64,000 bases of DNA from Vandammella animalimorsus (GTDB taxonomy: Bacteria; Pseudomonadota; Gammaproteobacteria; Burkholderiales; Burkholderiaceae_C). The notes under the pieces were generated by a model that made no database searches, had not been told where the DNA came from, and worked only from the letters and a program-made list of their open reading frames with translations. The stretch is from contig NZ_NSJB01000001.1 of the NCBI RefSeq assembly GCF_002285265.1, positions 682,001 to 746,000 of the forward strand. Reading direction: 5' to 3'. Both the position numbers and the translations under genes were made by a program. This document shows, one piece after another, positions 516 to 6,735 of the stretch (the stretch's first letter is position 1; every line of letters begins with the position of its first letter).

Positions 516-878
516 ATGCGTACCGACATGCTCCAGCAGGTGCTGGAAGAACTCAAGGGCTCCTCGGCCGATGTGGAGGCTTCCGCGCTGATCTCCACCG
601 ACGGGCTGATGATTGCCTCCGCGCTGCCCAATGGCATGGACGAGGACCGCGTGGGCGCGATGTCTGCGGCGCTGCTCTCGCTGGGCGACCGCGCCGTGCG
701 CGAGCTGGCGCGCGGCACGCTCGAGCGCGTGCTGCTGCAGGGCGATCGCGGCTACGTGATCATGAGCTCCTCGGGCACGGAGGCGGTGCTGACCGTGCTG
801 GCCAAGCACAACGCCAAGCTCGGCCTGCTGTTTCTGGACATCAAGCGCGCAGCCGAAGCGCTGTCCAAGCTGGTTTGA
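516..878 (+). CDS. Roadblock/LC7 domain protein (CvnB/MglB-like)
   Basis: A 120-residue single-domain Roadblock/LC7 protein. The pattern ALISTDGLMIAS (about residues 23-34), a central helix rich in Ala/Leu and the strand GYVIMSSSG match the family. Roadblock proteins act as dimeric partners or GTPase-activating proteins of small Ras-like GTPases (MglB for MglA; CvnB in actinobacterial conservons). A purine-rich ribosome site (AAGAAGGGA) lies just upstream of the ATG. It is the first gene of a seven-gene run that also contains a matching GTPase (4512-5060), which supports a partner role. Family call is firm; the exact function is inference. Confidence 0.85.
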   Translation: MRTDMLQQVLEELKGSSADVEASALISTDGLMIASALPNGMDEDRVGAMSAALLSLGDRAVRELARGTLERVLLQGDRGYVIMSSSGTEAVLTVLAKHNAKLGLLFLDIKRAAEALSKLV

Positions 879-896
879 CGCAAGGAGGGCCGGCCA

Positions 897-1391
897 ATGG
901 CATTTCCCCCCATGCAGCCCGCTGCCGATGCGCAGCAAACGCATACGCTGCACTTTCATGACGGCAGCAGCCGCACCGTGCAGGTCAGCCAGCGCGAAAT
1001 CCCCTACCCGGACGGGCGGCTGATCATCTCCCGCACCGACTTGCAGGGCATCATCACCCACGCCAACGAGGCCTTCGTCGAGCTCTCGGGCTACACGCGC
1101 GAGGAGCTCATCGGCCAGCCGCACTGCGTGCTGCGCCACCCGGACATGCCCCGCGCGGCCTTCAAGGATTTGTGGGACACCGTCGCCGCCGGCAAGAAGT
1201 GGCACGGCTACGTGAAGAACCTGCGCAAGGACGGCGCGCACTACTGGGTCTACGCCACGGCCGTGCCCAATGTGCGCAACGGCCAGATCGTGGGCTACAC
1301 CTCGGTGCGCCGCAAGCCATCGCGCAAGAAGATTGCCGAGATGAGCGCCTTGTACCAGCAATGGCTGGCCGCCGAAGGGAGCGCGTCATGA
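897..1391 (+). CDS. PAS domain sensor protein (Aer-like PAS)
   Basis: A 164-residue soluble protein consisting of a short N-terminal tail and one PAS domain (about residues 35-145). Motifs typical of Aer/redox-type PAS domains are visible: ITHANEAFVELSGYTREEL, RHPDMPRAAF, then WHGYVKNLRKDGAHYWVYA. No transmembrane segment, kinase, GGDEF or methyl-accepting output domain is present, so it must signal through a partner, perhaps the neighbouring Roadblock/GTPase pair. It may bind FAD or haem, but no ligand can be assigned from sequence. It lies 18 bp after the Roadblock gene, and its stop overlaps the next start (ATGA). Confidence 0.85.
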   Translation: MAFPPMQPAADAQQTHTLHFHDGSSRTVQVSQREIPYPDGRLIISRTDLQGIITHANEAFVELSGYTREELIGQPHCVLRHPDMPRAAFKDLWDTVAAGKKWHGYVKNLRKDGAHYWVYATAVPNVRNGQIVGYTSVRRKPSRKKIAEMSALYQQWLAAEGSAS

Positions 1392-2140
1392 CACTGAATC
1401 TGCTGATCGCGCCCGATTTCGCCCCCGAGCGCTTTGCCGGCTGGCACATGCTCAACACCTTGCTGCAGAAGAAATCGGGCCTGCAGCTGCACCTGCTGAC
1501 CCCGGCCTCGGCGGCCGAGCAGGCCGAGCTCATCGCCCAGGGCCAGGTGCACCTGGTCTATGCCAACCCGTTCGATGCCGCCTCGATGGTGCGCCAGGCC
1601 GGCTACCGCGCCATTGCGCGGCCCGTGGGCAAATCCGACGAAATGGTCATCGCCACCAGCGCCGGCTCGGCGCTGAACAGCGTGGAAGACCTGCAGCCCG
1701 GCGCGCGCATCGCGCTGACCGACAACAAGGACGTCAAGCTCATCGGCCTGCGCCTGCTCGAGCCTGCCGACCTGCTCGAGCCCGACGTGCAATGGCAGCT
1801 GGTGGACAACTACCAGGCCGCCGCGCGCCTGGCCATCAAGGGCGAGGTCGATGCCAGCTTCTTCCTGGCCGAGGCCTACCACTCGCTCTCGCGCCTGACG
1901 CGCTCGCAGCTCAAGCCGCTGATCGAAAGCAAGCTGGCCGACATCACCCATGTGCTGCTGGTGCAAGGCGGCATCGAGCCGGATGCGGCCCAGCGCATCA
2001 GCGCGGCGCTGCTGGATCTGAAAGGCACGCCCGATGGTCAGCCCGTGCTCGATGAACTGGGCATGGGCGGCGGCTTTGAAGCCATGAGCGAGGAAGATGC
2101 CGAGTTCATGATCGACTTGATGAACACCTTGCTGGACTGA
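1388..2140 (+). CDS. PhnD-like substrate-binding-fold protein, apparently cytosolic
   Basis: A 250-residue protein of the phosphate/phosphonate-type periplasmic binding protein fold (PhnD/SsuA-like). The pattern MLNTLLQKKSGLQL, then YANPFDAASMVRQAGYRAIARPVGKSDEMV, then GEVDASFFLAEAYHSL follows the family layout. The protein starts directly with the first beta strand (MTLNLLIAPDF) and has no signal peptide or lipobox, so it should stay in the cytoplasm, unlike transporter-linked relatives. No ABC transporter genes are adjacent. The start overlaps the PAS gene by 4 bp (ATGA), implying translational coupling. It may be a ligand-sensing subunit of this operon; that role is inference. Confidence 0.75.
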   Translation: MTLNLLIAPDFAPERFAGWHMLNTLLQKKSGLQLHLLTPASAAEQAELIAQGQVHLVYANPFDAASMVRQAGYRAIARPVGKSDEMVIATSAGSALNSVEDLQPGARIALTDNKDVKLIGLRLLEPADLLEPDVQWQLVDNYQAAARLAIKGEVDASFFLAEAYHSLSRLTRSQLKPLIESKLADITHVLLVQGGIEPDAAQRISAALLDLKGTPDGQPVLDELGMGGGFEAMSEEDAEFMIDLMNTLLD

Positions 2141-2156
2141 AACGGCGGCACACCCC

Positions 2157-2834
2157 ATGACCGCGCAACAGCACCCGGCCAGACTGCCCCAGACCGCCCA
2201 GGCCCAGGGCGCCACGGCCACACACATGGCGCAGGCATCCGGCAGCCCAGCGGCCTCGGCTGCGCAGGCCCACGCTGCCAGCGCCCGCTTGCGTCAGGCC
2301 AGCCGTCTGGTGCTGCAAGCGCCAGCAGACTTGGCCTTGCATGCCCAGCGCATCCAAATGGCCCTGGCCTTGCCGGGTACAGAGCCGCTGCAAGCGGCCC
2401 TGGTGGACATGCTGTGCGGCTGCAAAGCCCCGCCCCAGGCACTGTGCGAGGTGCTGGCCCAGCCGGCTGTGCGCGAGCGCCTGCCCGCCCCCGCCTGGCA
2501 GGCGCTGCACGCCCAGGCGCAAAGCGGCCGGCCGCTGCCGCGCGTCACGCCGCTGGCCACCCGCTGGTGCATACTGGCCAGCCCCTCACTGGATGTGCCG
2601 CAGCGGGCTTGGCTGTGCGGGGTGGACGATTCGCGCAACATTGCCGCGCACGCGCTGGCCCCATTGCAGGCAGGCGACGCAGAAGCCGAGCAAGACTTTC
2701 TGGCGCACTGCCTAGGCTCGCACGACACCCTGGCCTTCATGCTCGCGCGCCGTGCATTGCAACGCCAGAGCATCGTGCTGTCCCCGCAATGGGAGCACAC
2801 CATGCAGGCGCTGCAGCAAAGGATGGATGCATGA
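2157..2834 (+). CDS. Hypothetical protein, Ala/Gln-rich N-terminus
   Basis: A 225-residue protein I do not recognise. The first 45 residues are low-complexity Ala/Gln/His. The rest is predicted mainly helical, with repeated Leu/Ala heptad-like stretches, several cysteines (LCGCKAPPQALC around residue 82-93) and a C-terminal helix ending QQRMDA. No signal peptide or membrane segment is seen. It sits 16 bp after the PhnD-like gene and overlaps the next gene by 4 bp (ATGA), so it is clearly part of the Roadblock-GTPase operon. An adaptor or scaffold role is possible but unproven. Confidence 0.65.
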   Translation: MTAQQHPARLPQTAQAQGATATHMAQASGSPAASAAQAHAASARLRQASRLVLQAPADLALHAQRIQMALALPGTEPLQAALVDMLCGCKAPPQALCEVLAQPAVRERLPAPAWQALHAQAQSGRPLPRVTPLATRWCILASPSLDVPQRAWLCGVDDSRNIAAHALAPLQAGDAEAEQDFLAHCLGSHDTLAFMLARRALQRQSIVLSPQWEHTMQALQQRMDA

Positions 2835-4501
2835 ACGACAACTGGGTATTGCTGGCCGGGCTGACCGACCACGAGGCCGCCGCCATCGAGATCATGATCA
2901 ACATGACTTGGCGCGACCAGCGCTGCATTACCCTGCGCCGCGACCTCTCGCTGAGCATCCCTGAGCAAACTGCGCAGGCCAAAGCCTGTCGCTACTGCGT
3001 CATCGACCTGTTCAGCCTGGGGCTGCGCAAGCATTCGCCCGACAACGAAGTGCTGCTGCTGCAGTTCCTGGCCGGTCGCTCGGCCGTGCTGCTGGTGCGC
3101 GGCAGCGGCAGCGGCTGGTTCGACGCCCTGCTGCCGCTGCAGCCTGGCCAGCACATCACCTGCCTGAGCATGCCCTACAGCAGCATCGCCCTGCGCGATG
3201 CCCTGCAGAAAATCAAAAACGCCAACGCCGCCGATGCGCAGCGCACGCCTGCCGCAGTCCAGCCCAACGCTCGCCAGCCTGTGCATGCCGCCGCATCAGC
3301 GCCATCTGCCTCGTCCGCAGGAGCAACCCAACGCCGCGTCACTGACGACGCAGCGGCTGACAGGCCGCGCGCGGAGGCCATGCCGTCGCGCTCTGCACCT
3401 TCCCCCGCGCCTGCTCCTGCCACGGCGCCCGCGCCCGCGCCCATGCCCGCCTGGCGCCGCGCCCTGCAATTGGCCGAGCGCCTGCACGCCGAGCGCAGCG
3501 CGCGCCAGCCCGCTGCCGCCCAGCAGCCCGCCCAGCCCCCAGCGCCAAGCGCTCGACCAACCCCGAACCCGCCGCGCGAGCCCATCGCCCCCACCCCCCC
3601 ACAGCCAGTGGCCAATCGCCCGGCCAGTCACCCGGCCCGCAGCGCCCAGGCGCCTGCCAGCAGCATCGCAGCAGCCCCGCCAAGCCAGACAGGGGCAGCC
3701 GAAAGCCTGTCCGTGGCCCCGCCAGCCGTGCCTTTGTCCGCCCAAGCCATGGGCCTGCGCACAGGCGCCTGGACCCAGCTGCTGCGCACCCTGCCAGCCC
3801 TGAAGGGGGTTGCGCTGGCAGACTTTATCGGCCAAACGCTGCAGGACACACTGGGCGAAGGCCTGCAACTCTGGCGCATTGGCCCAGTCGTTTGCCTGGT
3901 GCATGTGCGCCAGGGCTGGATGGCCACGACAGCTCCGGCGGCCACCTTGCAAAAAATGGTGCATACCCCCGGCCTGCTGCAACGCGTGCAGCGCCAATCC
4001 CTGCCCGCCGACGAGTTGCCCAATGCAGTCCAGCAGTTCTTTGGGCAGTCTTTCGAGCGCATGCAAAGGCCGCTGGATGTGCTGGCCTGGGATTTGCTCA
4101 GCGAATCGCTGGACGGCCTGACGCTGCAGGCGCAGGACGATTTCACGCTGCAACTGCGCAGCTTTCCCAACTTCCCGCATCTCACGCGCAGCGATCCACT
4201 GGACGTGCAGCTGGCAGCCATCTGTGCCCGCATCCCCCAATCCGTGCATGACCTGTTGCGCGCTTTCCCCCGCCATGAACAGGCCGTGCTGCGCTTTATC
4301 ACGTTGAGCGTGGCCTGCGGTCTGGCAGTGGTGCTGGACACGCCCGCCTACCAGCACAAAGACACCCCAAGCCCCGATCAGGCTGCCACGGCAAAGCCCA
4401 CACCTGCAGCAGCGCCCCCGGCAGCTGCGCCAGCCCCCGCCAGCGGCGCCACCAAGGCGCGGCGCGGCTTCTTCAAGTCCTTGCTGGACAAGCTCTTCTG
4501 A
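2831..4501 (+). CDS. Large two-domain hypothetical protein with Pro/Ala linker
   Basis: A 556-residue protein with three zones. Residues 1-125 form a compact alpha/beta domain (begins MNDNWVLLAGL; CRYCVIDLFSLGL) that may be a receiver-like fold. About 130-310 is a very Pro/Ala-rich disordered linker. About 315-510 is a second folded domain (ALADFIGQTLQDTLG, WRIGPVVCLVHV). It ends in another disordered stretch and a basic amphipathic tail, RRGFFKSLLDKLF, which could touch a membrane or partner. The ATG overlaps the previous stop (ATGA), and the GTPase gene follows after 10 bp. I do not recognise the family. The architecture resembles a scaffold linking sensor and GTPase, which is inference only. 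Confidence 0.7.
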   Translation: MNDNWVLLAGLTDHEAAAIEIMINMTWRDQRCITLRRDLSLSIPEQTAQAKACRYCVIDLFSLGLRKHSPDNEVLLLQFLAGRSAVLLVRGSGSGWFDALLPLQPGQHITCLSMPYSSIALRDALQKIKNANAADAQRTPAAVQPNARQPVHAAASAPSASSAGATQRRVTDDAAADRPRAEAMPSRSAPSPAPAPATAPAPAPMPAWRRALQLAERLHAERSARQPAAAQQPAQPPAPSARPTPNPPREPIAPTPPQPVANRPASHPARSAQAPASSIAAAPPSQTGAAESLSVAPPAVPLSAQAMGLRTGAWTQLLRTLPALKGVALADFIGQTLQDTLGEGLQLWRIGPVVCLVHVRQGWMATTAPAATLQKMVHTPGLLQRVQRQSLPADELPNAVQQFFGQSFERMQRPLDVLAWDLLSESLDGLTLQAQDDFTLQLRSFPNFPHLTRSDPLDVQLAAICARIPQSVHDLLRAFPRHEQAVLRFITLSVACGLAVVLDTPAYQHKDTPSPDQAATAKPTPAAAPPAAAPAPASGATKARRGFFKSLLDKLF

Positions 4502-4511
4502 CCCTGCTGCC

Positions 4512-5060
4512 ATGGCCAATACCTACAAGCTCGTTTTCGCCGGCCCCGTGGGCGCGGGCAAGACCACGGCCATCCAGTCCCTGTCGGACATCGAGGTCGT
4601 GCGCACCGAAGCCAATGCCTCCGACGAGGTGCGCCTGCTCAAGCAAACCACCACCGTGGCCATGGACTACGGCCTGATGAAGCTCGCCAGCGGCGACCAG
4701 GTGCGCCTGTACGGCACGCCCGGGCAAAAGCGCTTTGACTTCATGTGGGACATCCTCACCGAAAACGCGCTGGGCCTGGTGCTGATGATCAAGGCCAGCG
4801 CTCCCGACCCGGTGGCCGACCTGCGCAGCTACACCCAGGCCTTCCGTCCCTTCATCGACAAAACCTCGCTGGTGGTGGGCATCACCCACAGCGAAAGCCG
4901 CAGCCCGCAGGTGCGCCACACCCTCTCGCGCACGCTGCTGGAGCTGGGGCTGCCGCCCACAGCCATGGACACCGACGCGCGCAACCGCGCACACATGGCC
5001 ATCCTGGTCAAAGCCTTGATCTACGGCATTGACCCCTTCAACGGCTCGCACCAGGGCTGA
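4512..5060 (+). CDS. Ras-like small GTPase, conservon CvnD type
   Basis: A 182-residue GTP-binding protein. The P-loop GPVGAGKTT is at residues 11-19, a Thr-rich switch I segment with TTTVAMDYG at 46-54, and the G3 motif appears as GTPGQ at 68-72. The usual NKxD specificity motif is replaced by THSE at 125-128. The combination of TTTVAMD(Y/F)G, YGTPGQ(K/D)RF and FMWD is characteristic of the CvnD-like GTPases of actinobacterial conservons and related bacterial proteins. It lies 10 bp after the two-domain protein and 5 bp before a Roadblock-like gene. It is probably the switch of this operon, with the Roadblock protein (516-878) as partner. Confidence 0.88.
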   Translation: MANTYKLVFAGPVGAGKTTAIQSLSDIEVVRTEANASDEVRLLKQTTTVAMDYGLMKLASGDQVRLYGTPGQKRFDFMWDILTENALGLVLMIKASAPDPVADLRSYTQAFRPFIDKTSLVVGITHSESRSPQVRHTLSRTLLELGLPPTAMDTDARNRAHMAILVKALIYGIDPFNGSHQG

Positions 5061-5065
5061 CCACC

Positions 5066-5701
5066 ATGGATGACGCCTTTCTCATGCTCACCCCCGCAGG
5101 CGCCTTGCACAGCCATGCGCTGCGCCAGCCTGACGAAGCCTGCGAAGCCTTGCAAAGCCTGATGCGCGGCGAGCAAACGCCGCGCCGCAGCGCCTGGCTG
5201 GCGCAATCGCCCGCACACCGCGCCGTATTGGCGCGCGCGCTGTACGAGGGCTGGGTGGACGAGCTGCCGCGCAGCCTGCCCGCGCCCACGCTCAAGCTCG
5301 ACCACTACCTGCCGCACGCCATCGCCGGCCTGTCCAGCACGCGCACCGCCGCGCTGGCCTCGGACCAGGGCTTTTGCCTGGCGCGCGTGGGCTACGACGA
5401 GCGCCAGGCCGAAACCCTGTGCGCCGTCGCGGCCGATTTCAGCGACTTCATGCAGCGCCAGCAGCAACGCGGCTGGCACAACAGCGGCCGCGCCGTCTCT
5501 TTTTTTCAGGGCATCGACATGCTGATGCCCGACACCTCGCTGGCCCTGTTCTGGGTGGACGGCGTGGGCTACTGGCTCATCCTCGGCGGCGAGCCCCTGC
5601 TCAACAACCGCGCCCTGGTGGAGCTGATCTGGGGCATTCACGCCGCAGGCAGCAAATTCGCCCGCAGCAGCTTGGCGCTGCAACGCTGGCAATCCCGGTA
5701 A
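5066..5701 (+). CDS. Hypothetical protein, possible divergent Roadblock domain
   Basis: A 211-residue protein, last gene of the operon and only 5 bp after the GTPase gene. Residues about 90-200 (AALASDQGFCLARVGYDE, a helix, then SLALFWVDGVGYWLILGG and a final helix) have the strand-turn-strand-helix order of Roadblock/LC7 folds and resemble the DGL segment of the first gene. This similarity is weak and is my inference. The N-terminal about 85 residues are helical and unrecognised. A second Roadblock-like partner would fit a GTPase-centred complex. Confidence 0.6.
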   Translation: MDDAFLMLTPAGALHSHALRQPDEACEALQSLMRGEQTPRRSAWLAQSPAHRAVLARALYEGWVDELPRSLPAPTLKLDHYLPHAIAGLSSTRTAALASDQGFCLARVGYDERQAETLCAVAADFSDFMQRQQQRGWHNSGRAVSFFQGIDMLMPDTSLALFWVDGVGYWLILGGEPLLNNRALVELIWGIHAAGSKFARSSLALQRWQSR

Positions 5702-5758: not shown

Positions 5759-6403
5759 TCACTGCGCCGGATCGCGCACCACGTCCACGCCTGGCGGCGG
5801 CGTGAACTCAAAGCGCTTGGCCGGCAGGGCGACGTTCTTCTCGAAGCCCTCAAAGCGCAGCGCCGAGCGCTGGCCGAAGTTGTCCTCGATCTCCAGCGCC
5901 GCCAGGGCATCGCCGGCAAAGCCAATGCGCACGCTGCGCAGCGTGCCATCGCTGGCCTTGGGCGTGGCCAGCACCCATTGCAGGCCGTCGGCATCCGGGG
6001 CGCTCTCCAGCTTGAAATCGCGCTCCAGCGCCGCGCGCGTGCTGGCCGAGGAGACGATGGCCGCCGGCGTGCTGCTCAGCGCCCGCTGCTGATCGCGCGC
6101 CGTGACCTGCTCCAGATCGGGGTCGTAAATCCACAGCGTCTTGCCATCGCCGACGATTTGTTGCGCAAACGGCTTGAGGTAATCAAAGCGGAACTGCCCT
6201 GCCGGGCGCGCAAAGGCAAACGTGCCGCTGGAGCGCGTCACGCGGCCGGCCTCGCCATCGCGCGGCGGCGCCGTCACCGTCTGCGTGAAACTGGCCTGGC
6301 CCGACTGCACCTGCTGCACGAAACGCTCCAACGCCTGCAGGCCATCGGCCCAGGCCCAGGGCGCCAGCAAGGCCAGCGCCAGGGAAACTGCGGTTTTCTT
6401 CAT
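5759..6403 (-). CDS. lolA: Outer membrane lipoprotein carrier protein LolA
   Basis: A 214-residue periplasmic chaperone that takes lipoproteins from the LolCDE complex to LolB at the outer membrane. The signal peptide MKKTAVSLALALLAPWAWA is followed by LERFVQQVQSGQASFTQTV, SSGTFAFARPAGQFRFDYLKPF and the C-terminal VRIGF/FGQRS/FTPPPGVDVV strands typical of betaproteobacterial LolA. A second in-frame ATG 15 bp upstream (6418) would add MKAFP, and neither start has a strong ribosome site. In many relatives lolA directly follows ftsK; here it lies about 20 kb away and a thioredoxin gene occupies that place. Confidence 0.88.
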   Translation of the reverse strand: MKKTAVSLALALLAPWAWADGLQALERFVQQVQSGQASFTQTVTAPPRDGEAGRVTRSSGTFAFARPAGQFRFDYLKPFAQQIVGDGKTLWIYDPDLEQVTARDQQRALSSTPAAIVSSASTRAALERDFKLESAPDADGLQWVLATPKASDGTLRSVRIGFAGDALAALEIEDNFGQRSALRFEGFEKNVALPAKRFEFTPPPGVDVVRDPAQ

Positions 6404-6590
6404 AGGGAAAGCTTTCATCAGAAACAGGCCCGGCGCAGCGCCAAGCCTTGTGAACAGACTCTTGAGAATAGGCTGGCCTGCATTGTGCCCAAGCCAGCCA
6501 CGGCCAAAAACTTCCCTTGGAGGCAGGCGCGCCCGCACAGTTCAACGCCCCAAGCGGCAATTACCCTTTTTTGCAGATGCCAGGCCGTGG

Positions 6591-6660
6591 CCCGTTGTGC
6601 CTCGTTGTGCCTCGTTGTGCCTCGTTGTGCCTTGCGGTGCCTCGTGGTGGCACATCGTGC
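6591..6660 (+). repeat. Decamer tandem repeat upstream of amn
   Basis: Seven consecutive 10-bp units run from 6591 to 6660. The first is CCCGTTGTGC, the next three are identical CTCGTTGTGC, and the last three decay (CTTGCGGTGC, CTCGTGGTGG, CACATCGTGC). The array ends 75 bp before the amn start. The period is close to one DNA helical turn, so repeated sites would face the same side of the helix. Confidence 0.85.
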
Positions 6661-6735
6661 CCATGCAGACCATTGTCACCATCGCCGGGCATACTCCTGG
6701 GTTTGCCCCATACCAGAAAACCCCTGCGCCCCGAC

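Follow-up and report, generated by a model that had tools for sequence, protein, structure and literature searches.

A Group 3-type MglA operon with Aer-PAS, PhnD-like and TPR-related proteins in Vandammella animalimorsus, and relatives without the GTPase

Gene content and layout of the operon

The 64,000-nucleotide stretch analyzed here (contig NZ_NSJB01000001.1 of Vandammella animalimorsus, assembly GCF_002285265.1, positions 682,001 to 746,000; hereafter the window) contains a seven-gene operon, g1 to g7, in which two Roadblock proteins and an MglA-type GTPase are encoded alongside a PAS protein, a PhnD-like binding protein and two further proteins (Table 1). From bacterial MglB to human Ragulator, the best-known role of Roadblock proteins is that of a partner to small GTPases. 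All seven genes lie on the plus strand between positions 516 and 5701, with intergenic distances of 18, -4, 16, -4, 10 and 5 bp, and the tight packing described in the original prediction, which had been made from the sequence alone, is real and conserved in relatives. By blastn, the first 9 kb are 94.9% identical over 8.7 kb to a V. animalimorsus contig, and the Roadblock protein is 100% identical, which places the genome in or next to this species.

Family searches assigned g1 to Robl_LC7, g2 to PAS, g3 to Phosphonate-bd and, weakly, g6 to P-loop GTPase families, and gave no family above the cut-off for g4, g5 and g7 of the window. The remaining proteins were approached by structure comparison and through their relatives. 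The N-terminus of g5 has a receiver fold (comparison spanning residues 2-141), while Pfam returned nothing at E<=0.01 for 20 g5 rows. By the same kind of comparison, g7 has a Roadblock fold (residues 75-197); when the profiles of g1 and g7 were compared with each other, no support was obtained (hhalign probability 0.34 on a scale of 0-100). In an alignment of 11 rows of g1, 43 of 121 columns are invariant. As for g4, a distant member of its family (L138) matches TPR_19 (E = 5.3e-7), and this protein and a second relative (L145) match a TPR protein sited upstream of g5 in the core loci described below; the g4 profile against PDB sequences returned one weak row, a designed protein (E = 0.13). 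The two proteins left unrecognized by the original prediction can thus be described as a receiver-fold protein (g5) and a protein one of whose distant relatives has TPR repeats (g4). Naming the TPR protein of the core loci FimV was considered and dropped, as the name is unsupported for the protein of L036 and a single g4 relative reached just E = 0.065.

Table 1. Genes and protein regions of the operon (positions in the window; aa, amino acids)
Feature	Position	Strand	Evidence
g1, Roadblock/LC7 protein (MglB-type), 120 aa	516..878	+	Pfam Robl_LC7, E = 7.8e-17
g2, stand-alone Aer-type PAS protein, 164 aa, predicted to bind flavin adenine dinucleotide (FAD)	897..1391	+	E. coli Aer, E = 5.6e-42
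g3, PhnD-family binding protein, 250 aa	1388..2140	+	Pfam Phosphonate-bd, E = 2.4e-42; no export signal by eye
g4, TPR-related protein, 225 aa	2157..2834	+	TPR matches of relatives
g5, protein of 556 aa: receiver fold, disordered linker, C-terminal domain, conserved basic/hydrophobic tail	2831..4501	+	
g5, receiver-fold domain, aa ~1-140	2831..3250	+	Structure model and fold comparison
g5, C-terminal folded domain, aa ~305-505	3743..4345	+	Predicted local distance difference test (pLDDT) score high over most of the stretch
g5, C-terminal tail of the RRGFFKSLLDKLF type	4460..4498	+	Similar tails in divergent relatives
g6, MglA-family small GTPase, 182 aa, Group 3 type by motifs	4512..5060	+	
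g7, helical (winged-helix-like by eye) N-terminal region and Roadblock domain, 211 aa	5066..5701	+	
g7, Roadblock domain, aa 75-197	5288..5656	+	Fold comparison

Relationship to Group 3 MglA systems and to conservons

According to the sections on Group 3 in Wuichet & Sogaard-Andersen (2014, PMC4316618), these MglA systems occur in beta- and gamma-Proteobacteria and comprise MglA, one or two MglB proteins and a partner with a receiver-like N-terminus, a linker of variable length and a winged helix-turn-helix (wHTH)-like C-terminus. Their GTPase has a Thr in place of the Arg finger, a GTPGQ motif, a deviant G4 and a DAR in G5. The operon shares all three kinds of component: g6 carries TTT, GTPGQ, VGITHSES and DAR, g5 combines a receiver fold with a linker, and two Roadblock proteins (g1 and g7) are encoded. 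The C-terminal domain of g5, at the place of the wHTH-like region, is well folded in the model, the fold comparison being the one over residues 2-141. Among 40 aligned GTPase rows, the window included, TT[VI]A is present in 40, GTPGQ in 37 and D[AG]R in 39, and [NT]KxD in 9. A quick GTPase tree, which holds no named Group 3 reference rows, placed the window and the core rows in one starred set of 58 rows, together with Deinococcus and BLUF-linked long branches. The core g5-g6-g7-g1 fits the published Group 3 systems, and the operon is best described as a Group 3 MglA system with a sensor arm of Aer-PAS, PhnD-like and TPR-related proteins.

It is this arm that sets the operon apart. The Group 3 sections of PMC4316618 name no PAS, PhnD-like or TPR partners, and the words PAS, phosphonate, Psychrobacter and Moraxella are absent from its main text. 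In the full-text literature searched, no description was found of a combination of Roadblock, PhnD and GTPase, or of an Aer-type PAS with MglA/MglB, and the additions of g2, g3 and g4 to a Group 3 core were likewise not found described. The original prediction knew of no described system with this exact content; as the core fits a published group, the operon is not wholly undescribed.

Other known systems resemble parts of the operon. The Group 3 mgl locus of Snodgrassella has mglA and two coupled mglB genes, as in the window, and the main text of its description mentions no PAS domain, PhnD or receiver (PMC11112851). The Myxococcus polarity module (MglA, MglB, MglC, RomY and RomR; PMC12719032, PMC9481161) likewise combines a GTPase with more than one Roadblock protein, and its RomR, with a receiver domain, a disordered linker and a terminal helix, resembles g5; the passages on it contain no Aer-type PAS or PhnD-like partner. 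The traits of the Group 1 (Myxococcus-type) GTPase, an Arg finger in G2 and TVPGQ in G3, are not present in the window, which has TTT and GTPGQ. A precedent is HGbRL, the globin-Roadblock fusion of Methylacidiphilum (PMC4476040), in which a sensor that binds a ligand has been proposed to pass its signal to a Roadblock domain. The window differs from it, since HGbRL is one fused heme chain, and neither a PAS nor a PhnD-like protein is described there.

The original prediction had called the operon conservon-like and its GTPase CvnD-type. Like the actinobacterial conservons (CvnA-D), the operon does encode a Roadblock protein and an MglA-family small GTPase with a GTPGQ motif, and an actinobacterial-type conservon transferred to betaproteobacteria would share this pairing. 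In three control conservons that we fetched, the gene order is a sensing/ATP-binding protein in the place of CvnA, a Roadblock protein, a DUF742 protein and a GTPase, so the controls have their expected partners, whereas family searches found no histidine kinase family and no CvnC (DUF742) among the seven window proteins. In addition, the control GTPases lie outside the 58-row set that holds the window GTPase (quick tree, long branches). With CvnA and DUF742 partners missing and the GTPase on another branch, we rejected conservon membership, and a conservon transfer is extremely improbable.

Distribution and repeated absence of the GTPase

A scan of named genomes with a Roadblock profile yielded at least 458 confirmed relatives from at least 590 stretches; the best 80 were kept, a set biased toward close relatives and Psychrobacter. 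The order of the window, g1-g2-g3-g4-g5-g6-g7, was found in 18 of these 80 loci and the same order rotated (g4-g5-g6-g7-g1-g2-g3) in four, and 47 loci (39 of them from Psychrobacter) read g1-g2-g3-g4-g7; the other 11 have different layouts, some cut by contig ends. Where at least 5.5 kb of downstream sequence was available, g2, g3, g4 and g7 lie near g1 in 70 of 73 named loci. The predicted grouping of a Roadblock protein, a PAS protein, a PhnD-like protein with no export signal by eye, a GTPase and a second Roadblock protein in one operon is thus conserved across several genera; among the 80 named relatives, the order is not unique to the strain and the genes are not mostly unlinked. In wider samples the module is patchy and uncommon: a GTPase match at E<=1e-10 was obtained in 30 of 300 genomes of the same order, and g7 was found in five of 398 genomes of a phylum sample, the genome of the window being counted in both. 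The order sample contained 18 core loci, with g6 and g1 in all 18, g7 in 17 and g5 in 15.

Two loci with unusual content were noted. A cluster in an Ottowia bin (L135, 2650-9552) contains two Roadblock-PhnD pairs as well as two GTPases, and no PAS gene was found there. In Neisseria gonorrhoeae (L152), the frames of the core GTPase, g7 and the TPR protein are interrupted and that of g1 is open; the record, filed as a plasmid, is a chromosome judging by its 2.17 Mb.

Both g5 and g6 are missing in 47 of the 80 named loci, an absence that the original prediction was in no position to see. Since the g4 and g7 matches are just 65-170 bp apart in all 47, the two genes are gone and not merely diverged. 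After dereplication to 46 loci, both genes are present in 20, neither in 24 and a single one in two. An MglA profile (E<=1e-5) was run on the 48 genomes with a g6-less locus, that is, the 47 and a further one (L083) that keeps g5; of these draft assemblies, 26 gave no match, 21 have a GTPase elsewhere and one yielded a 26-bit fragment. Five of the 21 elsewhere-encoded GTPases were examined, and each sits in a different locus beside its own weakly matching Roadblock gene, two of them also adjoining a BLUF gene. Relocation of the module's own GTPase was rejected, as these five do not look like a transposed copy of it. A search for g5 elsewhere, covering 12 of the 48 genomes, found it in none (0/12), while the positive controls were found in 4/4.

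On a tree of the five shared proteins from the 46 loci, the GTPase state changes five times, at least four of them by starred branches. The tree is rooted at its midpoint, and its long branches meet in the rotated, GTPase-bearing group; because this group is taken as the outside, the changes are read as losses of the GTPase, probably at least four in number. Among the five lineages, L084 (2.8 Mb) bears a doubtful organism label (Streptomyces cinereus JCM 3040) and groups with Moraxella rows with full support, so that it is probably a mislabeled or contaminated assembly. The five shared proteins of two further loci, labeled Lysobacteraceae NML95-0200 and NML07-0707 (L089, L091), cluster with Comamonadaceae rows, whereas those of Luteimonas and Xanthomonas do not; either transfer or a label problem would explain this.

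The Psychrobacter sets of the module are under strong purifying selection. The ratio of nonsynonymous to synonymous substitution rates (dN/dS; rough values, as dS was often above 1) in six Psychrobacter pairs lies between 0 and 0.024 for g1 and does not exceed 0.08 for g2, g3, g4 and g7, with one g4 pair saturated. Two GTPase-less Lysobacteraceae pairs gave 0 for g1 and 0.06-0.24 for the other four, and seven GTPase-bearing pairs gave 0-0.05 for g1 and 0.01-0.54 for the other four where computable. Given the low values in GTPase-less pairs, the sensor-Roadblock set is kept by selection without the GTPase, a hint that the sensor complex is able to function without the GTPase switch. Lineages that retain the Roadblock proteins and the two sensors in this state offer a way to learn what Roadblock proteins do without a GTPase.

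Predicted properties of the sensor proteins

Apart from one sub-threshold row, g2 has PAS matches only, and the HAMP and methyl-accepting signaling domains of Aer are absent from it. In the sections of PMC9668731 on the Aer structure, R57 bridges an FAD phosphate oxygen, W70 stacks on the adenine, R115 lies near N5, and H53 and N85 interact with the flavin. R57, W70, N85 and R115 are kept in 78 of 78 PAS rows of the module and H53 in 64 of 78; the window g2 carries all five residues and is predicted to bind FAD. It is thus of the same FAD-type PAS as Aer and, like CetB of the split Campylobacter system CetA/CetB (PMC2628428), a separate PAS protein. Aer and CetA/CetB signal with a chemoreceptor, as described in these sources, whereas the putative partners of g2 are Roadblock and GTPase proteins.

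In the 22 module rows of g3 picked for alignment, nothing corresponds by eye to the signal region of E. coli PhnD (22/22), and a gap stands at the STSG loop, the site that holds the phosphonate, again in 22 of 22. Because the export-signal region and this loop are missing, the ligand of g3 is probably different from that of PhnD and not a phosphonate held as in PhnD. A search of PDB sequences with the g3 profile gave nothing at E<=0.01.

Proposed mechanism and alternative explanations

In the mechanism that we propose, the products of the operon form a soluble sensory complex with two Roadblock proteins as its base. In this complex, g2 would carry FAD and report the redox state or respiration of the cell, g3 would bind a cytosolic ligand, both signals would reach the Roadblock pair g1/g7, and the TPR-related g4 would serve as a scaffold. 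In loci that have the output arm, this pair would regulate the MglA-type GTPase g6, possibly as a GTPase-activating protein, and g5 may work with g6 as RomR does with MglA in Myxococcus. In lineages without g5 and the GTPase, the remaining sensor-Roadblock set would act on another partner. The output target is probably the type IV pilus, which would make twitching, adhesion or DNA uptake dependent on the redox state. To the whole mechanism, a redox- and ligand-sensing Roadblock complex with an optional GTPase arm that tunes type IV pili, we assign a probability of about 0.5. A stronger version, in which a GTPase-independent sensor for redox and ligand, made of the Aer-PAS, PhnD-like and two Roadblock proteins, directly controls a cell-surface machine and the Ras-like switch is an option lost several times, is put forward tentatively.

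The choice of the pilus as target is based on the following observations. PilT was above the cut-off in 49 of 49 genomes chosen for the module or its core, and in the order sample it was present in 30 of 30 GTPase-bearing genomes versus 219 of 270 others (Fisher p 0.004, uncorrected for kinship). Flagellin was found in eight of 30 module genomes and not in that of the window, which has one gene with a methyl-accepting chemotaxis protein (MCP) domain. In Snodgrassella, mutation of the orphan (third) Group 3 mglB leads to motile flares at the colony edge on soft agar, interpreted by the authors as altered pilus-dependent motility, and all three mglB genes are reported there as beneficial in the bee gut by transposon sequencing (sections of PMC11112851). 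The operon is a candidate link from respiration to type IV pilus behavior in bacteria that mostly have no flagellin.

Several observations weigh against the proposed mechanism. PilT occurs in 249 of 300 genomes of the order sample, and since it is so common in the order anyway, the link to the pilus is weak; no pilus genes were seen among the flanks of the five loci read by eye. Five of the eight flagellin genomes have GTPase-less loci, so that a flagellar target is conceivable in these. The absence of the GTPase in relatives means that it cannot be the sole output, and 21 of the 48 genomes with a GTPase-less locus carry an MglA-type GTPase elsewhere that could serve the complex. The tail of g5 has a hydrophobic moment at or below that of shuffled versions, so its role as an amphipathic helix or membrane anchor is unsupported. 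Moreover, among the 18 core loci, the PhnD-like protein was found in seven, g4 (by this profile) in three and PAS in two; given the counts for PAS and the PhnD-like protein, the sensors are not general to Group 3.

The last point speaks for a reading of the operon as a plain Group 3 MglA/MglB polarity system, with the GTPase as its purpose and the PAS, PhnD-like and TPR-related proteins as minor accessories: 16 of the 18 core loci have no PAS and 11 no PhnD-like protein, and the published definition of Group 3 (sections of PMC4316618) agrees with it. However, 47 of the 80 named loci keep Roadblock, PAS, PhnD-like protein, g4 and g7 together with neither the GTPase nor g5, and g1 stays at a dN/dS of at most 0.024 in the six Psychrobacter pairs, so we consider this explanation rather unlikely. 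Another idea is that species with a GTPase-less locus use their Roadblock set to serve a GTPase from elsewhere in the genome. Such a GTPase is available in 21 of 48, but 26 of 48 (draft assemblies) show none at E<=1e-5 and the five that were examined adjoin a Roadblock gene of their own, which makes a borrowed GTPase improbable. It is also conceivable that the operon is a transcriptional regulator, in which winged-helix parts of g5, g7 or both bind DNA and are gated by the Roadblock, PAS and PhnD-like proteins. Gene regulation was suggested by the authors of PMC4316618 from a predicted wHTH-like region of the g5 family, and the modeled N-terminus of g7 is helical and winged-helix-like by eye; yet g5 is missing in the GTPase-less lineages, and we regard a regulator of this kind as unlikely.

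Flanking genes and other Roadblock/GTPase loci

The genes flanking the operon vary by genus (five loci, read by eye) and provide no shared functional clue. Just upstream of the operon in one of them (L069, 4281-6039), on the opposite strand, lie a phosphate transporter gene (PHO4, E = 4.2e-98) and a DUF47/PhoU-like gene (E = 6e-34), a pair that was not seen beside the operon in the other four.

Among the other Roadblock/GTPase loci that were fetched, an ODP protein is nearby in six, V4R in two and BLUF in two; a 2Fe-2S/FAD oxidoreductase is near three, and a globin-type match was obtained in the one of these that was scanned. The Pfam matches had E values of 4e-69 (ODP), 3.7e-12 (V4R), 2.3e-22 and 6.1e-20 (BLUF), 1.2e-12 (Fer2) and 1.1e-5 (Bac_globin). 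Because varied redox, oxygen or light proteins adjoin Roadblock/GTPase loci, the reading that best joins these facts, as far as gene neighborhood indicates, is that interchangeable soluble sensors may be attached to a Roadblock core.

Several individual loci were noted. The genome of the window has a second mgl-type locus (L033, contig C18, 5784-8737), which holds a Roadblock gene (Pfam E = 5.4e-11), a divergent GTPase and a further small gene (6286-6687) without a Pfam match that is Roadblock-like by eye. The ODP-family protein (E = 4e-69) at L036 (12077-12844) lies upstream of the TPR gene and a Group 3 core, and such a protein is also found at L039, L040, L041, L043 and L050. In two loci labeled Lysobacteraceae (L155, 6503-9831, and L156), the Roadblock/GTPase locus adjoins a protein with 2Fe-2S, FAD, nicotinamide adenine dinucleotide (NAD) and globin-type matches, a relative of which is near the GTPase locus L037. 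At L044 (7937-9715), a Pkinase domain (E = 1.5e-33) and the GTPase are read from a single 592-aa open frame that lies between g5 and g7, with a V4R protein at the opposite end of the locus. Finally, two Psychrobacter genomes (L157, 6271-7950, and L158) carry a BLUF gene immediately ahead of the genes for an MglA-type GTPase and a Roadblock protein, and an annotated BLUF protein stands before the same pair on an Agarilytica plasmid (L166, 3264-4940); these loci possibly represent a light-controlled relative.

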